Virus record (IMG/VR): IMGVR_UViG_3300022745_000996
Location: 1-37,951 of that record
Direction: 5' to 3' (one strand)
Source: a virus
Length of the DNA: 37,951 nucleotides
The notes beneath the pieces are model-generated. The model was given only the letters and a program-made list of their open reading frames with translations. It searched no databases and was not told the DNA's origin. Below, one piece after another: positions 20,348-28,602 of this stretch. The position numbers and the translations under genes were made by a program. Each line of letters begins with the position of its first letter. Positions within the stretch are counted from its first letter, which is position 1.

Positions 20348-21352
20348 TCAGCACCCCGCAATGACTTGAGCACCCACCACAGGCGCACCGGCTTTGGCGG
20401 CGGCATTCATGGCACGGCACACCAGGTTGTTCACCACCAGGGGGTAGCACACGCTGCGGGCGTCGGCAGGTTTGCCGCCACGGGGCATGTGGATCAGGCG
20501 GGTGCGGATGGCATCCACCGCGTCGGCGCTGAGCACTTGGTCCAGCTTCAGGTCAAAGCGGGCGAACTTGTGGCGCAGGTAGGCTTCCAGGTCGGCGTCC
20601 AGTGGGTCAAGGGGCACCACTTCGCAGCGCTGGGCCACCTCGCGCACATCGGCGTTTTGGCTACCCAGGCGTTCGCGCAGCTCGGGCTGGCCAATCAGCG
20701 CCACACCAATCAGGCGCTGCATGCCGTCTTTCAGTTCAATGAAGCGCTTCAAGTGCTTGAGCGTGGCCACGGGCAGGCAGTGGGCCTCTTCAATCACCAG
20801 CAGATGGCGGCGGCCCGCCTTGCGGCTGGCGCGCAGCAGCTCATGCACTTGGCGAAAGCGGGCCTCGGGGCTGCTTTTGACCTTCAGGTTGGGGTCCAGC
20901 GCATAAGCGATGGCTTCGGCAATGTGGCTGCTCTTGAGGGTTTTGCCCTTGGTGTCGCTGGCTTCCATGGCCAGCACGTAGGGGCGGATGACCAGCACGT
21001 CGCGCCCTTCGGCCTTGATGCGTTCTTCCAGGTCTTCGGCCAGGGTGGACTTGCCTGCGCCACTCTCGCCGACCACGGCGCAGAAGCCGTGGTGCTGGGC
21101 ACAGTCCATGAGCGCGGCGCGCACGTAGCGCACGCTGGGGCTTTGGAACACGTCGTCGGTGGACTGCACATCGTCCACAAACGGGTTGCGGGGCAGGCCG
21201 AAGTGCTTGCGCGCTTCGGGGGTCAAGGGGGCGTTCTGAAGTAGCATGGCTTCCTCTGTGGTTTCAGGTTTGGTTACCGGGGTTGCAGGGACGGCCTCAG
21301 CAAGGTGCGAACTTGCTGGGGCCAACTTATTGGTGGTGGTGACTGTTTTCAC
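20348..21352 (-). CDS. Transposition ATPase B (MuB/ExeA-like AAA protein)
   Basis: A 334-residue AAA ATPase with Walker A GESGAGKST at residues 95-103 and Walker B LLVIEEAH at 184-191; a LIGVALIGQPEL segment follows as sensor 1. It resembles TniB/ExeA-type ATPases and fills the role of MuB: target DNA binding, target immunity and stimulation of the transposase. The N-terminal 45 residues are Thr/Pro-rich and flexible. It overlaps the transposase gene by four bases (ATGA), typical of the A-B pair. Confidence 0.93.
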   Translation of the reverse strand: MKTVTTTNKLAPASSHLAEAVPATPVTKPETTEEAMLLQNAPLTPEARKHFGLPRNPFVDDVQSTDDVFQSPSVRYVRAALMDCAQHHGFCAVVGESGAGKSTLAEDLEERIKAEGRDVLVIRPYVLAMEASDTKGKTLKSSHIAEAIAYALDPNLKVKSSPEARFRQVHELLRASRKAGRRHLLVIEEAHCLPVATLKHLKRFIELKDGMQRLIGVALIGQPELRERLGSQNADVREVAQRCEVVPLDPLDADLEAYLRHKFARFDLKLDQVLSADAVDAIRTRLIHMPRGGKPADARSVCYPLVVNNLVCRAMNAAAKAGAPVVGAQVIAGC

Positions 21353-23121
21353 AGGGCACCACCGTTCACCACCTTCAGGCCGCTGCGCACCGTCAGGCGG
21401 GCATGCAGGGCATCCAGTTGGTCTTCTGGCACACCGTTGGGGTGCATGGCCCCCACGGCGGCATACAAATCCTTGGTCATGACCAGCCCTTTTTGAGCCA
21501 GCGCGGCGCAGGCTTCAAACTGGTTCAGCACGCGGGCCGGTGCTGACGCAACGCTGGTGCCGGGCATCATTTGTGTGCCGGTGCGTGGCATGAAGGTGCG
21601 CTGGGGGGCCTGATCAATGACGGCCATGGGGTCAATGCGGCCGCCGAATGGAACCGCCTTGGCCTTGAGCTTGGCGTCCACTTCGGCATCGGTTTCAGCG
21701 TCGTAGGCGAAGCGCTGCACTTCCTTGCGGTTGGCATCCAGCGCGGTGTCAGCGGGGCGTGCCCATTCTTCGTTGATGACGTTGGCGTCTGCCCTGAAGC
21801 CTGCGCCGTCACGCACCACCAGGTTGATGCTGTGCAGCACCTCGGTGCCATCGGCATCGTTGTAGACCACGCTGGCGGCATCTGCAACATAGGGGTTGTA
21901 GGTGACCTGCAGCTTTTCGCCGACCATGACGCCGGGCACGCTCTTCACGTCGAATTCCTGGCCCTTGAAGCTGATGGTCAGCGTGTCAGTGACCTTGCGG
22001 GACTCGGGCGTGTGCGTCAGCAGGTTGAAGCACAGCTCACGGCTGGGGGCCACGCGCAGCTGCTCGGCAGTGATGGTCAGCCACTGGTCGTACCGGGTTT
22101 TGCCGTGGCGGGTGTGTACCTTGGTGCTGTTGAACCAGCGGGCCCAGCGCTGGGCGGTGGCATTCAGTTCGTCCAGGTTGGCCACGGGCTTCAGGCGCAG
22201 GCCGCTTTCAAAGCTGCGCTCAATCAGGTCACGGGCTTTTTCTACTTGGCCGGTGGCGCGGGCATTGCCGGGTGCGTGGGCAAGGGTTTTGACCTGCAGG
22301 CGGCGGGCCAGCGTGGTGAACAGGCCGCTGGTGTTGGCGCTGCCCATGTCCATCATCAAAATGAAGGGCACGCCGTGCAGCGGATCGTCGTCGCGTTTTT
22401 GGATGGCGGCAATGAAGCTGTCGGCGAGGTTGGTGCCCGACTCTGCACCCATCACATAGTTGACGAACACCGCACCGGAGTTGTGGTCGGTGACCTCGTA
22501 GGACCACACGCGGTCGGCTTCAATGCGCTTCAAGTTGGCGGGCTTGTTCTTGTAGAACTTGTCACGTTCCATCACCTGCAAGCCGGACTCGGCAGGGTTG
22601 CGGGTGTTCAGGTAATACAGCACGCACAGGCTGGCGTCGATTTGCCAAACGTGGTTGGGGTGCAGGCTCTTCAGCTCCACAGCGGGTGTGGGGCGGTTGA
22701 GCTGGTCAGGGTGCAAGCCATAGCTGCGCAGGGCAGCGGCAATGGCCTGGTCGCTGATGGGCTTGATTTCGCCAGTGGCGGGGTCCACCCGGGTAGCTTC
22801 AATTTCTCTGTTGGCCCGCAGGATTTCCACCGCTTGTCCAATGGACATGAGGCGCTTGCCGGTTTTGCGGTGGCTGGTCATGAGCAGCGCGCTGACGGCG
22901 ATGGCGTCTTTGCGTGTCAGGGACACATCGCCTGCATCACTGCGCTGTTTGCGTTCGGGTTTCACAGAGACCTTTCCAATGTGGCGGTGAAGCGTGGCCA
23001 GGCTGACTCCCAGGCGGCTGCAGGCCTCCTGGTAGATGGCTTGCTTTCCGCCACGCGGGGCCTGTGCAACCGCCTGGCGGACCTGCACAAGGGCTTCAAC
23101 GGTGGCGGGGTTGAGCGACAT
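21349..23121 (-). CDS. DDE transposase A (MuA-like)
   Basis: A 590-residue transposase that cuts phage ends and joins them to target DNA. An N-terminal helix-turn-helix (AIYQEACSRLGVSLATLHRHIG, about 29-50) is followed by end-binding domains and an RNase H-like core with D162 (VWQIDAS), D258 (MMDMG) and E294 (ATGQVEKA). The D258-E294 spacing of 35 is typical for DDE enzymes. A Mu-transposase C-terminal beta domain lies around 365-440 and a charged C-terminal tail should contact B. It is 31 bases after the DUF3102 gene. No clear ribosome site precedes ATG 23121. Confidence 0.95.
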   Translation of the reverse strand: MSLNPATVEALVQVRQAVAQAPRGGKQAIYQEACSRLGVSLATLHRHIGKVSVKPERKQRSDAGDVSLTRKDAIAVSALLMTSHRKTGKRLMSIGQAVEILRANREIEATRVDPATGEIKPISDQAIAAALRSYGLHPDQLNRPTPAVELKSLHPNHVWQIDASLCVLYYLNTRNPAESGLQVMERDKFYKNKPANLKRIEADRVWSYEVTDHNSGAVFVNYVMGAESGTNLADSFIAAIQKRDDDPLHGVPFILMMDMGSANTSGLFTTLARRLQVKTLAHAPGNARATGQVEKARDLIERSFESGLRLKPVANLDELNATAQRWARWFNSTKVHTRHGKTRYDQWLTITAEQLRVAPSRELCFNLLTHTPESRKVTDTLTISFKGQEFDVKSVPGVMVGEKLQVTYNPYVADAASVVYNDADGTEVLHSINLVVRDGAGFRADANVINEEWARPADTALDANRKEVQRFAYDAETDAEVDAKLKAKAVPFGGRIDPMAVIDQAPQRTFMPRTGTQMMPGTSVASAPARVLNQFEACAALAQKGLVMTKDLYAAVGAMHPNGVPEDQLDALHARLTVRSGLKVVNGGAL

Positions 23122-24059: not shown

Positions 24060-24431
24060 TCAGTGAGCGGTCATGGCCTGCTTGAGGTCGGCCAGCTTGG
24101 TTTCAGCGCGCTGGAAGTCGGCCAGCACAGCAAAGGTCAATCGGGTGAACGCGGGGGCTGGATAGAAGCGCCCGTTCTCAGCGTTCTTGCGCGCCCAGCC
24201 CTTCTCAATCAGCTTGGCCATCGCGCGGGTGATTTGGGGCGGGCTGGTTTTGACGGCGGCCACCAGGTCGCCATTGGTGGCTCCGGTGGCTGCGAAACCG
24301 CACAAGGCCTCCAGCACATCCAGTACCAGGCCTGCGCCCTTGCTGTCTGTGGAGTCCTGCTGACCGGGCTTACTCCCGCCAAAAATGGCATTGAAGGTAG
24401 AGGCGGTTTCTTTTTGGCTCAGTGTTGCCAT
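24060..24431 (-). CDS. Winged-helix early regulator
   Basis: A 123-residue protein with an IclR/MarR-style winged helix at about residues 35-95: GLVLDVLEALCGF, then TNGDLVAAVKTSPPQITRAM and a KNAENGRFYPA wing. It probably binds DNA. It lies three bases after the gene before it and 25 bases before the DUF3102-like gene. Similar small proteins occur ahead of transposase genes in Mu-like phages. Confidence 0.72.
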   Translation of the reverse strand: MATLSQKETASTFNAIFGGSKPGQQDSTDSKGAGLVLDVLEALCGFAATGATNGDLVAAVKTSPPQITRAMAKLIEKGWARKNAENGRFYPAPAFTRLTFAVLADFQRAETKLADLKQAMTAH

Positions 24432-24434
24432 GGC

Positions 24435-24917
24435 TCAAAACTCCAGTTCGGGGGTGGCGTAGGCCGCCACGTTGCGTTGGTGGTAGGCCACCTGTTCCAG
24501 GTGGTTGCGCAGGGCTTCCAACGTGGCCGTGGTGTCTGCCTTGTCGCCCTGTTGGTAAAAGTCCTTCAGCAGTTGCAGGGCGCTGGCAAAGCCGGTGTTC
24601 AGCTCCACCATGTCTGCAGGTGTGGCCTGGGTGCCTTTGGGCATGTCAACCAGCAAAAAGCCTTCGCTTGCGGCAAACCAACGGGTCACAAAGTTGATGC
24701 CGCACGCCAGTTCAAACGGGCGCACCAGGTTGGCGGGCATGCGCCCGCTTTGCAGCCACTTGTAGAGGGCATAGTGGTCTGCCACGCCCATGTCGTCGGC
24801 AATGCGCTCCATGCCCTTGTTCAGCCGTTCACGTGCGTGGTCTTTGCACAGCTCCATGGCGTGGCGCAGGCTGGTGGGCTGCAGGCGCTTCCACTGGCGG
24901 GTGGGTTTTGCAGTCAT
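24435..24917 (-). CDS. Early protein with possible CII-like HTH
   Basis: A 160-residue protein. Residues about 15-70 (SLRHAMELCKDHARERL, then IADDMGVADHYALYKWLQSG) look like a DNA-binding helix-turn-helix, followed by LVRPFELACGINFVTRW, in the style of phage CII/CP76-type regulators (weak resemblance). The C-terminal half is helical. ATG 24917 was chosen because AAGGGG lies eight bases upstream; the open frame continues upstream but only mirrors other sequence. It faces an opposite-strand small gene across a 111-base gap. Confidence 0.65.
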   Translation of the reverse strand: MTAKPTRQWKRLQPTSLRHAMELCKDHARERLNKGMERIADDMGVADHYALYKWLQSGRMPANLVRPFELACGINFVTRWFAASEGFLLVDMPKGTQATPADMVELNTGFASALQLLKDFYQQGDKADTTATLEALRNHLEQVAYHQRNVAAYATPELEF

Positions 24918-25028
24918 GCCATGGCCCCTTGCTGTTGGGGTGCCAAACAAAAACCGTTTTTGCATGTGGCGCAACGGCGTTGCACGGGGCAAAGTTTGGG
25001 CATCGCAACAACGACCAGGGAGCACACC
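24918..25028. promoter_or_regulatory. Divergent intergenic region with palindrome
   Basis: This 111-base region separates a minus-strand gene (start 24917) from a plus-strand small gene (start 25029). It contains the perfect inverted repeat GCAACG-G-CGTTGC at 24971-24983, flanked by further TTGC/GCAA half-sites. It could be an operator for a regulator; no clear promoter hexamers could be fixed. The main early transcript probably also crosses it. Confidence 0.4.
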
Positions 25029-25298
25029 GTGGACAACACCCCAAGCAATGCCAAGCTGGCAGGCCAAATTGAGGCGCTGAGCCGTGCCGTGCTGCAGCTG
25101 GCCGCACAGCTGGAAATGCTGCAGCTCATTGATGGCCCCCATCTGTCCCAGGCGTGGCGGGGGGCTGTGCCAGATCGCATGGCGGCTGACTCTCGGGTGC
25201 TGCATGCTGCCCGGCTGCATCTGCAGGGCATGGCGACGGCGCTGGATGACGCCCGCCAAGGTCGGCAAATTCGCCAATCATGCCTTGATCCAGCCTGA
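25029..25298 (+). CDS. Opposite-strand small helical protein inside the early operon
   Basis: An 89-residue protein read against the early operon. It starts at GTG 25029 with AGGGAG six bases upstream. It is Leu/Ala-rich and amphipathic (KLAGQIEALSRAVLQLAAQL) and has high GC at third codon positions, as real genes here do. It overlaps the last 173 bases of the minus-strand gene 25126-25581, whose C-terminal part has poor third-position bias. The codon evidence therefore favours this frame in the overlap. Function unknown. Confidence 0.55.
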   Translation: MDNTPSNAKLAGQIEALSRAVLQLAAQLEMLQLIDGPHLSQAWRGAVPDRMAADSRVLHAARLHLQGMATALDDARQGRQIRQSCLDPA

Positions 25299-25581
25299 AA
25301 CCATGCGCATCACGACCATCAGCCGCCAGCTTGCCGGTGGCATAGTCATCAAGCCATTGGGCGGCAGCATCGCCTTCCAGGCTCAGGGTGGTGCGCGTGG
25401 GCGCAATCTCTTCTTTGCCCATGAGTTCGCACTCAAGGACGCGCTGCACATGCTGGGCAATGCGGTCGGCCATCCAGCCGGGCGGAATGGTGATGTCGCC
25501 ATAGCAGGTGGCAATGGTGAAACCGCGCACCATGTCTGGCACTTGCTTGGCCAGGGCGTAGCGAATGTCTTGATTAACCAT
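25126..25581 (-). CDS. Early protein, unknown function
   Basis: A 151-residue protein. The first 100 residues (MVNQDIRYALAKQVPDMVRG, then GDITIPPGWMADRIAQHV) look like a normal compact domain. From about residue 108 it is Pro/Ala/His-rich and overlaps the opposite-strand gene. The C-terminal part may therefore be an unselected extension. It is the second gene of the early operon, 35 bases after the Ner-like gene. No family recognised and no strong ribosome binding site. Confidence 0.6.
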   Translation of the reverse strand: MVNQDIRYALAKQVPDMVRGFTIATCYGDITIPPGWMADRIAQHVQRVLECELMGKEEIAPTRTTLSLEGDAAAQWLDDYATGKLAADGRDAHGFRLDQGMIGEFADLGGRHPAPSPCPADAAGQHAAPESQPPCDLAQPPATPGTDGGHQ

Positions 25582-25616
25582 GTGAAAATGCCTGTGTATG
25601 TGAAGGGGAATGGGTC

Positions 25617-25811
25617 TCAGGCCAAGGTCTTGGTAGGGTCTGGCTTGAGGCCCAGCTTCACGGCAATGACGTGTGCGTTCCCACGATGGCCTTTGTCAAA
25701 GCCATTGATGACGCGCAGTACTTGCTGTGGCCGATAGCCGTGGTCACGTGCCCATTGGGTGAAGGTTTCACCACGGGCACGGAACTGCGACTTGATTTGT
25801 TCAGGGGTCAT
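25617..25811 (-). CDS. Ner/Cro-like DNA-binding protein
   Basis: A 64-residue protein with a helix-turn-helix (FTQWARDHGYRPQQVLRVIN, about residues 17-36) and a KGHRGNAHVIAVKLGLKP tail. It is the first gene of the early operon, divergent from the repressor, which is the place of ner in Mu. Ner turns down early and repressor transcription. ATG 25811 was chosen because AAAGGAG lies just upstream; earlier ATGs (25826, 25871) give longer forms but the 25871 one lies inside the operator. Function by position and fold. Confidence 0.8.
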   Translation of the reverse strand: MTPEQIKSQFRARGETFTQWARDHGYRPQQVLRVINGFDKGHRGNAHVIAVKLGLKPDPTKTLA

Positions 25812-25848
25812 GACGCTCCTTTGCATGTCAAAACGTTGTGGTGTGTTG

Positions 25849-25877
25849 TTGGCATGTATTTTGGTATTCATTTGAAT
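25849..25877 (+). promoter_or_regulatory. Candidate repressor promoter
   Basis: TTGGCA (25849-25854), a 17-base spacer and TTGAAT (25872-25877) form a plausible sigma-70 promoter pointing to the repressor. The -10 and part of the spacer lie in operator O1. The match is moderate, with four of six bases at -10. Confidence 0.45.
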
Positions 25878-25886
25878 ACCTGTCAA
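25858..25886 (-). promoter_or_regulatory. Early promoter Pe with operator in the spacer
   Basis: On the minus strand a perfect -35 TTGACA (25881-25886) is followed by a 17-base spacer and -10 CAAAAT (25858-25863), pointing to the Ner-like gene 47 bases downstream. The spacer is filled by the 18-base palindrome O1, so a bound repressor would block the promoter. Confidence 0.7.
25863..25880. promoter_or_regulatory. Operator O1, perfect 18-base palindrome
   Basis: GGTATTCA-TT-TGAATACC is a perfect inverted repeat with a two-base centre, placed in the Pe spacer and over the candidate repressor -10. It is the best candidate binding site for the repressor, the Ner-like protein, or both. Confidence 0.75.
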
Positions 25887-25896
25887 CGGATTTGGA

Positions 25897-25914
25897 GATA
25901 TTTTTTTGAATATC
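25897..25914. promoter_or_regulatory. Operator O2, related palindrome over the repressor start
   Basis: GATATT-N6-AATATC shares 14 of 18 positions with O1 and has the same length. It lies 34 bases from O1, centre to centre, and covers the start codon of the repressor and part of its leader, suggesting autoregulation. Confidence 0.55.
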
Positions 25915-26283
25915 GCTGCACGACTTCGTGAGGAGCGTGAAAAGCTCGGTCAAAGCCAGGAGCAGTTCGGACTGATAGGGGGCGTGAAAAAGCTCGCCCA
26001 GATGAACTACGAAAAGGGTGACCGGAGCCCAGATGCGAACTACCTCGCAGCCATTGCGGCTGCGGGCGCAGACGTGCGCTACATCCTCACGGGCCAGCGC
26101 GATGGGCCCGCACCCGTGGTGCTGAGTGCAGAGGAACAAACCATGGTGGCTTACATGCGCGATGCCAGTCCCGCTTTGCGCAAGGCCGCGCTGGGGGTGC
26201 TGCTGTCAGGCAGCAGTGGCGGGGGCAACACCAACATCGTGAGCCGCAGCCTGTTTTCAGGGGTATTCAACCGGGGCAAGTAG
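25906..26283 (+). CDS. XRE-family repressor
   Basis: A 125-residue repressor with an N-terminal XRE helix-turn-helix (ARLREEREKLGQSQEQFG to GADVRYILTG, about 5-63). The C-terminal half holds a helical segment (LSAEEQTMVAYMRDAS) but no LexA-type peptidase, so RecA-driven self-cleavage is not expected. The start is TTG 25906, with GGAG eight bases upstream and no better in-frame ATG. A rare TTG start, with operator O2 on top of it, suggests low and self-controlled expression. It is divergent from the Ner-like gene, in the position of Mu c. Confidence 0.85.
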   Translation: MNIAARLREEREKLGQSQEQFGLIGGVKKLAQMNYEKGDRSPDANYLAAIAAAGADVRYILTGQRDGPAPVVLSAEEQTMVAYMRDASPALRKAALGVLLSGSSGGGNTNIVSRSLFSGVFNRGK

Positions 26284-27618: not shown

Positions 27619-28602
27619 ATGTCACTGCCACTTCGTAAACGCACGGTGCATTTCTATGAAATACACGTGCATGCCTACTCCAAGTCAGGCATCCAGAATC
27701 CGTCCTGTGCCCCACTACCTGTATTGCTGAATTGCTTTGCCGGACTGGCTACTGCCAGCAAGCTACCTCAGACAGTGCGCAAATCGAGTCAGGTACACAC
27801 AGTGCTATCGGATTGGAATTACGACCAAGCCAGTAACAGTTATCAATTGCTGATCAGCAAGGCCAATGCGGCCTTGTCCGACGTGGCATTGCGCGATCTC
27901 AAGACGGCCAAGTTACGCAAGGCTGGCAAAACAAAGGCGGAAGGCATTGAGGTGTCCGCTCACATCCTCTTGCGGCCCAATGCAAATGGAAAGACAGCCA
28001 CGGTGCTGCTGACCATGGGGGCTGGTGTGGCATCTAAGGACGTTGAGGTGTTACTGCGTGGCTTGTCCCGCATGGCATCCAAGCTGCCAAAAAACAAAAC
28101 CCTGTATTGGTTTGATGATCCATCGGGCGCAAAAGACGACAAAGGTAAGCCCAAACAATACGAGGTGCATTACGGATTTGCCGCCTACAGCCACATGGGT
28201 CAAACGATGACAGAGGCGTTGCGAACCGGTGAGTTCACTTCCATGGAGCTGGTGGCACCGGTGCGCAGCCAGTTTGACGCTGGAGGCAACTTGCAAATCA
28301 CAGAACGCACCTTAACCGTACATGCTGATTTGCCCAAAACCGTGACTGCGGCTGGCGTGCGCAATGCGATTCGTCACTTCCAGAAGCAGCCCGATGCCAG
28401 TATTTACAGCAAGCTGCGCATCCATTACAAGACAGTGTCTGGCAAGACGACCAGCGCCACTTTGGAACTCAACCACCTGGATGCTGCGTTTACGCTGAAG
28501 GAGCAAATCGACTTCACCATGGATGTAGAGGCACAGCAGGAGTCGCTTTGCCCGGCCATCGTCGATGGCATGAAAACACTGTTGCAGTCGGTGCCCACTT
28601 AA
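27619..28602 (+). CDS. Soluble protein of unknown function, cargo cassette
   Basis: A 327-residue soluble protein with AAGGAGG before ATG 27619. The N-terminus (KRTVHFYEIHVHAYSKSG) and the C-terminal half are beta-rich; a helical stretch lies around 140-155 (DVEVLLRGLSRMASKL). No catalytic motif, signal peptide or named family is recognised. Base composition is visibly lower in GC than the structural genes. It is 12 bases from a four-TM membrane gene. The pairing of a soluble protein with a membrane protein recalls phage-defence or exclusion modules, but this is inference. Confidence 0.65.
   Translation: MSLPLRKRTVHFYEIHVHAYSKSGIQNPSCAPLPVLLNCFAGLATASKLPQTVRKSSQVHTVLSDWNYDQASNSYQLLISKANAALSDVALRDLKTAKLRKAGKTKAEGIEVSAHILLRPNANGKTATVLLTMGAGVASKDVEVLLRGLSRMASKLPKNKTLYWFDDPSGAKDDKGKPKQYEVHYGFAAYSHMGQTMTEALRTGEFTSMELVAPVRSQFDAGGNLQITERTLTVHADLPKTVTAAGVRNAIRHFQKQPDASIYSKLRIHYKTVSGKTTSATLELNHLDAAFTLKEQIDFTMDVEAQQESLCPAIVDGMKTLLQSVPT

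Follow-up and report, generated by a model that had tools for sequence, protein, structure and literature searches.

Genes and sites of the early control region

The window, that is, the whole 37,951-nucleotide stretch of IMG/VR record IMGVR_UViG_3300022745_000996 that was analysed, contains a divergent repressor/Ner gene pair whose 94-bp intergenic region has one strong leftward promoter, pE, and two putative operators, O1 and O2, lie at this promoter and at the repressor start (Table 1). Since the early operon comprises ner, a CII-like gene, and a MuA-type transposase gene, the window can be assigned to a B3/BcepMu-type transposable phage; the features found for this type are the transposase, a gp16-family Ner (81.9 bits against TIGR04111, cutoff 34) divergent from the repressor, and the leftward promoter between them, recognized as a 10/12 sequence match. 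The repressor family profile matches the P22 c2 and 434 repressors, and PF01381 (HTH_3) was found at E ≤ 0.001 as the N-terminal fold in 22 of the 22 family members, while the window repressor alone scored 19.9 against PF01381, under the cutoff of 23. Within its 125 residues only the HTH was matched, with no sign of a CI C-terminal domain.

Table 1. Coordinates of the genes and sites of the switch region, with the evidence for each.
Feature	Positions	Strand	Evidence or remark
O1, putative repressor operator, GGTATTCATTTGAATACC	25863..25880	.	spacer position conserved; sequence tracks the repressor HTH
O2, putative second operator, GATATTTTTTTGAATATC	25897..25914	.	14/18 to O1; relatives arranged alike
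pE -35 hexamer, TTGACA	25881..25886	-	sequence; conserved in relatives
pE -10 hexamer, CAAAAT (family consensus CATAAT)	25858..25863	-	sequence; relatives
Repressor RBS, GGAG	25894..25897	+	8 bp before the TTG, touches O2; sequence
Rightward hexamers TTGGCA...TTGAAT (sequence-only reading)	25849..25877	+	unsupported as a promoter
Ner-like HTH protein, BcepMu gp16 family, 64 aa, ATG at 25811, early operon gene 1	25617..25811	-	TIGR04111, phrog_925
Repressor, 125 aa, TTG start, 434/P22-c2-type HTH, short C-terminal part	25906..26283	+	profiles
CII-like regulator, early operon	24435..25277	-	phrog_101, 4.5e-22
MuA-type transposase, early operon	21349..23121	-	phrog_310, 2e-107

The sigma-70-like pE consists of a perfect TTGACA (25886-25881), a 17-bp spacer, and CAAAAT (25863-25858), together matching the consensus at 10 of 12 positions, and a leftward promoter at least this good was reached in 1.2% of the shuffles of the intergenic region. 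This promoter had been recognized correctly in a sequence-only reading, which also had its spacer filled by a perfect 18-base palindrome; O1 does fill the spacer, but it is symmetric at 16 of 18 positions only, with perfectly complementary 8+8 arms around a TT centre (GGTATTCA-TT-TGAATACC). The outermost left G of O1 doubles as the first base of the -10 hexamer. The second, related palindrome of the same reading held up: O2 shares 14 of 18 positions with O1, begins 34 bp from it, and spans the TTG start codon of the repressor at 25906, and a match of this grade arose in 1 of 5000 shuffles of the 109-bp region around O1. O1 is the sole site within three mismatches of GGTATTCANNTGAATACC in the whole window (expected 0.03). 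A search for other operators across the window gave one three-mismatch match at 28103-28120, which is compatible with chance, and a repeat finder run on the window did not report O1 or O2.

The O1 palindrome by itself is only moderately unusual, as 58 of the 5000 shuffles of the 109-bp region also reached 16/18 and the window holds 12 such 18-mers; hence, the weight rests on the exact position of O1 and on its conservation in relatives. These counts would suit a chance palindrome of an AT-rich intergenic region, but dozens of relatives with different sequences have a palindrome at the same spacer position and a second copy paired with it. Judged by these comparative data, the chance reading is already refuted, and we give it practically no weight.

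Position and pairing of the two sites in related phages

Loci were gathered with the repressor and Ner proteins from three phage groups, and named phages were added. For the position test, a locus had to have exactly one GTCAA between the two genes, and loci more than 70% alike were removed, which left 36; the 18-mer palindromy was scored at each offset from GTCAA, and this motif alone served as the anchor, with palindromy playing no part in picking the site. The only palindromy peak falls on the promoter spacer, where the best of three offsets was 6.06 of 9 vs 3.44 ± 0.29 in the control triplets. The O1 sequences are diverse among the relatives, and the TTGACA of pE is conserved. For the tests of architecture, ownership, and mosaicism, the O1 calls relied on palindromy and promoter scores.

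A second O1-like site outscored shuffles at p < 0.05 in 41 of 58 loci and at p < 0.01 in 28, and some of the 58 have no clear O2. In the 37 loci with a strong O2 (at least 12/18), the site lies 29-42 bp from O1, with a median of 31 and nearly all values in the range of 29-34, and an in-frame start codon falls inside O2 in 36 of them. JBD25 is the plainest case, with ATGGGTAAATTTCTACCCAT as O1 and ATGGGTAAAAATCTACCCAT as O2, the first ATG of which is in frame with the repressor HTH. The O1-O2 distance varies by roughly half a helical turn among the loci, which gives no indication of cooperativity at a fixed phase. The proposal of a compact two-operator immunity switch is borne out to the extent that the architecture of both sites is conserved across many relatives and that O1 follows the repressor HTH, not Ner.

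KS10 and Mana are exceptions without a clear O1. In the 100 bp upstream of the repressor of KS10 (L049), there is no clear spacer operator, and AACGTTTG...CAAACGTT arms about 16 bp apart lie between the genes. In four further loci (L087, L092, L094, and L131), the Ner-like gene and leader are present and small proteins of other types replace the adjoining HTH repressor. Moderate conservation over 51 loci was also seen for a T/G-rich stretch upstream of the -35 anchor (offsets -30 to -62, approximately 25820-25852 in the window); this stretch reads C/A-rich in the leader of the early transcript and may be a leader element or a Ner site. The L028-type Ner gene and leader occur at ≥90% identity in 465 of 5426 complete E. 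coli genomes, and this search, together with a near-mode phage search, found the backbones to be widespread.

Ownership of O1 and transcription of the repressor

Over 74 non-redundant loci, O1 similarity and the HTH-segment identity of the repressors are correlated (Mantel r 0.35; the maximum of 5000 permutations was 0.16). In the 59 loci with a Ner, O1 similarity gave r 0.50 to the HTH and 0.006 to Ner, and a repeat with other filters gave 0.48 and 0.058, respectively. The set retains a few miscalled loci, such as L087 and L092, which should weaken rather than create the operator-HTH correlation. The permutations leave some relatedness in, so that pairs in unlike Ner backgrounds matter. The window and L156 are such a pair, sharing KKLAQxNYEKG and 17 of 18 operator bases with a Ner similarity of just 0.34. 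The window HTH type, GGVKKLAQxNYEKG, recurs with small changes in L156, L105/L117, L123, and phages 520873 and Acica, and all the carriers have (G)GTAT/ATACC-type arms, with a Ner that is unlike or not annotated.

A competing owner is the Ner-like protein, which would use O1 and O2 to turn off the repressor during the lytic cycle, after the manner of Mu. The ner gene is transcribed from pE and its product binds DNA, and in Mu the corresponding region is where Ner acts. In this family, operator similarity is nevertheless uncorrelated with Ner and correlated with the repressor HTH, and phages with near-identical Ner proteins carry unrelated O1 sequences. Ner was rejected as the owner of O1 on the lack of an operator-Ner correlation in the 59 loci and in the repeat, and we regard the Ner-site reading as very unlikely; the window likewise departs here from the Mu c/Ner operator system, in that no such correlation points to Ner action at O1 or O2. 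Because the O1 sequence follows the repressor HTH and not Ner, O1 is best assigned to the repressor as its operator. The same co-variation of operator and HTH supports the prediction, made for a 434/P22-c2-type repressor, that a dimer would bind palindromes of 14-18 bp.

The sequence-only reading also placed a rightward promoter over O1, so that one site could shut both directions. TTGGCA (25849-25854) and TTGAAT (25872-25877) can indeed be read 17 bp apart with 9 of 12 matches, and overlapping pE/pC2 promoters are predicted, though not shown, for B3 and Fc02 (PMC9936078). Against this, the key A2 of the -10 is missing, a pair of at least 9/12 occurs in 26% of shuffles, and the rightward hexamer scores over 51 loci are unconserved and equal those of shuffles (7.12 vs 7.13). 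In RNA-seq of the Fc02 lysogen, most repressor transcription seems to come from a distal promoter, pC1, and pC2 seems active only after induction (PMC9936078). We rejected the rightward promoter at O1 because it is no better than shuffles here or over the 51 loci, and without it the claim of a single site for both directions loses its support; an O1 that alone governs both directions through an overlapping repressor promoter is improbable in our estimate. A weak or activator-dependent repressor promoter may overlap pE.

The reading that we favour, and hold to be quite probable as a whole, is that the repressor silences pE from O1 and limits itself from O2, and that the cassette of sites and HTH is exchangeable. 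Comparison of the relatives shows where O1 and O2 lie, that both are conserved, and that O1 goes with the repressor rather than with Ner; we infer repressor binding, repression, and autoregulation. A dimer of the 125-aa repressor would occupy O1 between the -35 and -10 of pE and exclude RNA polymerase, and thus would silence the early operon from ner through the CII-like gene to the transposase. The homologous pE of Fc02 becomes active once a temperature-sensitive repressor is inactivated, as seen by RNA-seq (PMC9936078). At O2, over its own start codon, the repressor most likely would exert negative autoregulation by blocking transcription into its gene, either at initiation or as a roadblock.

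Whether O2 mainly serves as a roadblock to distal rightward transcription, instead of blocking initiation near O1, is a variant of this last step that we consider a serious possibility, if a little below even. No promoter-like rightward site is present near O1, a distal pC1 is reported in Fc02 (PMC9936078), and O2 lies where the message must pass, since 36 of the 37 strong O2 sites include an in-frame start codon. On the other side, a promoter scan of 24400-25910 passed no rightward site, distal or near O1, and in this respect the window differs from Fc02 with its reported distal pC1.

Mosaicism and comparison with known switches

Near-identical Ner genes occur with several unrelated repressor HTH types; JBD25-type O1 (TGGGTA) and Fc02-type O1 (TGGGAC) are an example of two types with the same Ner. 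In 61 representative pairs with the same Ner and different HTHs, the identity is approximately 0.6-0.9 over the leader and the -10, roughly 0.24-0.5 over O1, and 0.24-0.36 beyond, the -35 excepted; the drop sits at the -10/O1 edge and goes to near background. On the repressor side, 42 pairs have HTHs less than 45% identical and still similar C-terminal 55 residues, as in the JBD25/Fc02-type repressors, and the last residues of the PM105 and Ps60 repressors are common to both. This pattern suggests that O1, the -35, O2, and the HTH-coding part are swapped between phages as a compact specificity cassette, while the segment with the Ner gene, leader, and -10 to its left, and in many cases the C-terminal part of the repressor to its right, would be kept. 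As the simplest reading of the identity pattern, we infer recombination as the source of the mosaic.

In the P2-like loci L045, L046, and L048, repressor HTHs of the same type and spacer palindromes stand beside unrelated leftward genes, which are an annotated Arc-like repressor in 520873 and hypothetical proteins in Acica and Carl1; the cassette may therefore cross phage kinds. These three P2-like phages resemble the window in their related repressor HTH and in a spacer palindrome beside TGTCAA, with GTAT/ATAC-type arms like those of the window in 520873 and Acica, but they have a P2-like genome, and no gp16-type Ner annotation is attached to their first leftward gene.

The closest kin are the B3-like phages (Beetrevirus and relatives: B3, Fc02, JBD25, JBD67, Ps60, and PM105), which share with the window the divergent repressor and BcepMu-gp16-type Ner, the short intergenic region, the leftward pE, and the operator in its spacer, most of them also with a copy over the repressor start, whereas the operator sequence and the repressor C-terminus differ. 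The BcepMu-like phages share the gp16-family Ner and the gene order; the spacer of PhiKM is occupied by a perfect palindrome, TGCTCATAATTATGAGCA, in contrast to KS10, whose switch has BcepMu gp16/gp17 homologues and, unlike the window, no spacer operator that could be discerned. P22 c2, 434, and lambda CI have the 434/P22-type HTH repressor in common with the window, and their control regions contain palindromic operators of similar length, one of them between the -35 and -10 of an early promoter. The lambda CI-type switch utilizes three operators per region and a self-cleaving C-terminal domain, whereas the window has two sites, the second over the repressor start, and a repressor in which no self-cleaving domain was found. 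In the case of the lambdoid phages Gifsy-1 and Gifsy-3, heteroimmune repressors recognize different operators and yet share their antirepressors, which makes DNA specificity separable from a second interaction (PMC3121763); the putative exchange boundary of the window type lies at the -10/operator edge of the early promoter.

Already known are operators placed between the -35 and the -10, repressor and Ner genes in divergent pairs, and, from Gifsy (PMC3121763), heteroimmune repressors that share partners. In the open-licence literature searched, we found no description of the spacer operator in such phages, of a layout of two sites in which O2 overlies the start codon, of the occurrence of this layout in transposable and in some P2-like phages, or of the -10/operator joint.

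We think it rather likely, with less assurance than for the switch itself, that the pE spacer is a general immunity socket, in which transposable and some P2-like phages would swap immunity through the O1/-35/O2/HTH cassette, with the left joint at -10/O1 and the right joint in the repressor linker, and keep the early operon and the repressor C-terminus. If this is true, the immunity group would be readable from the 17-bp spacer, and for B3- and BcepMu-type phages it could be predicted from the spacer and the recognition helix. The dozens of natural operator/HTH pairs would provide material for a recognition code, and the pattern points to a specific recombination joint for changing superinfection immunity.
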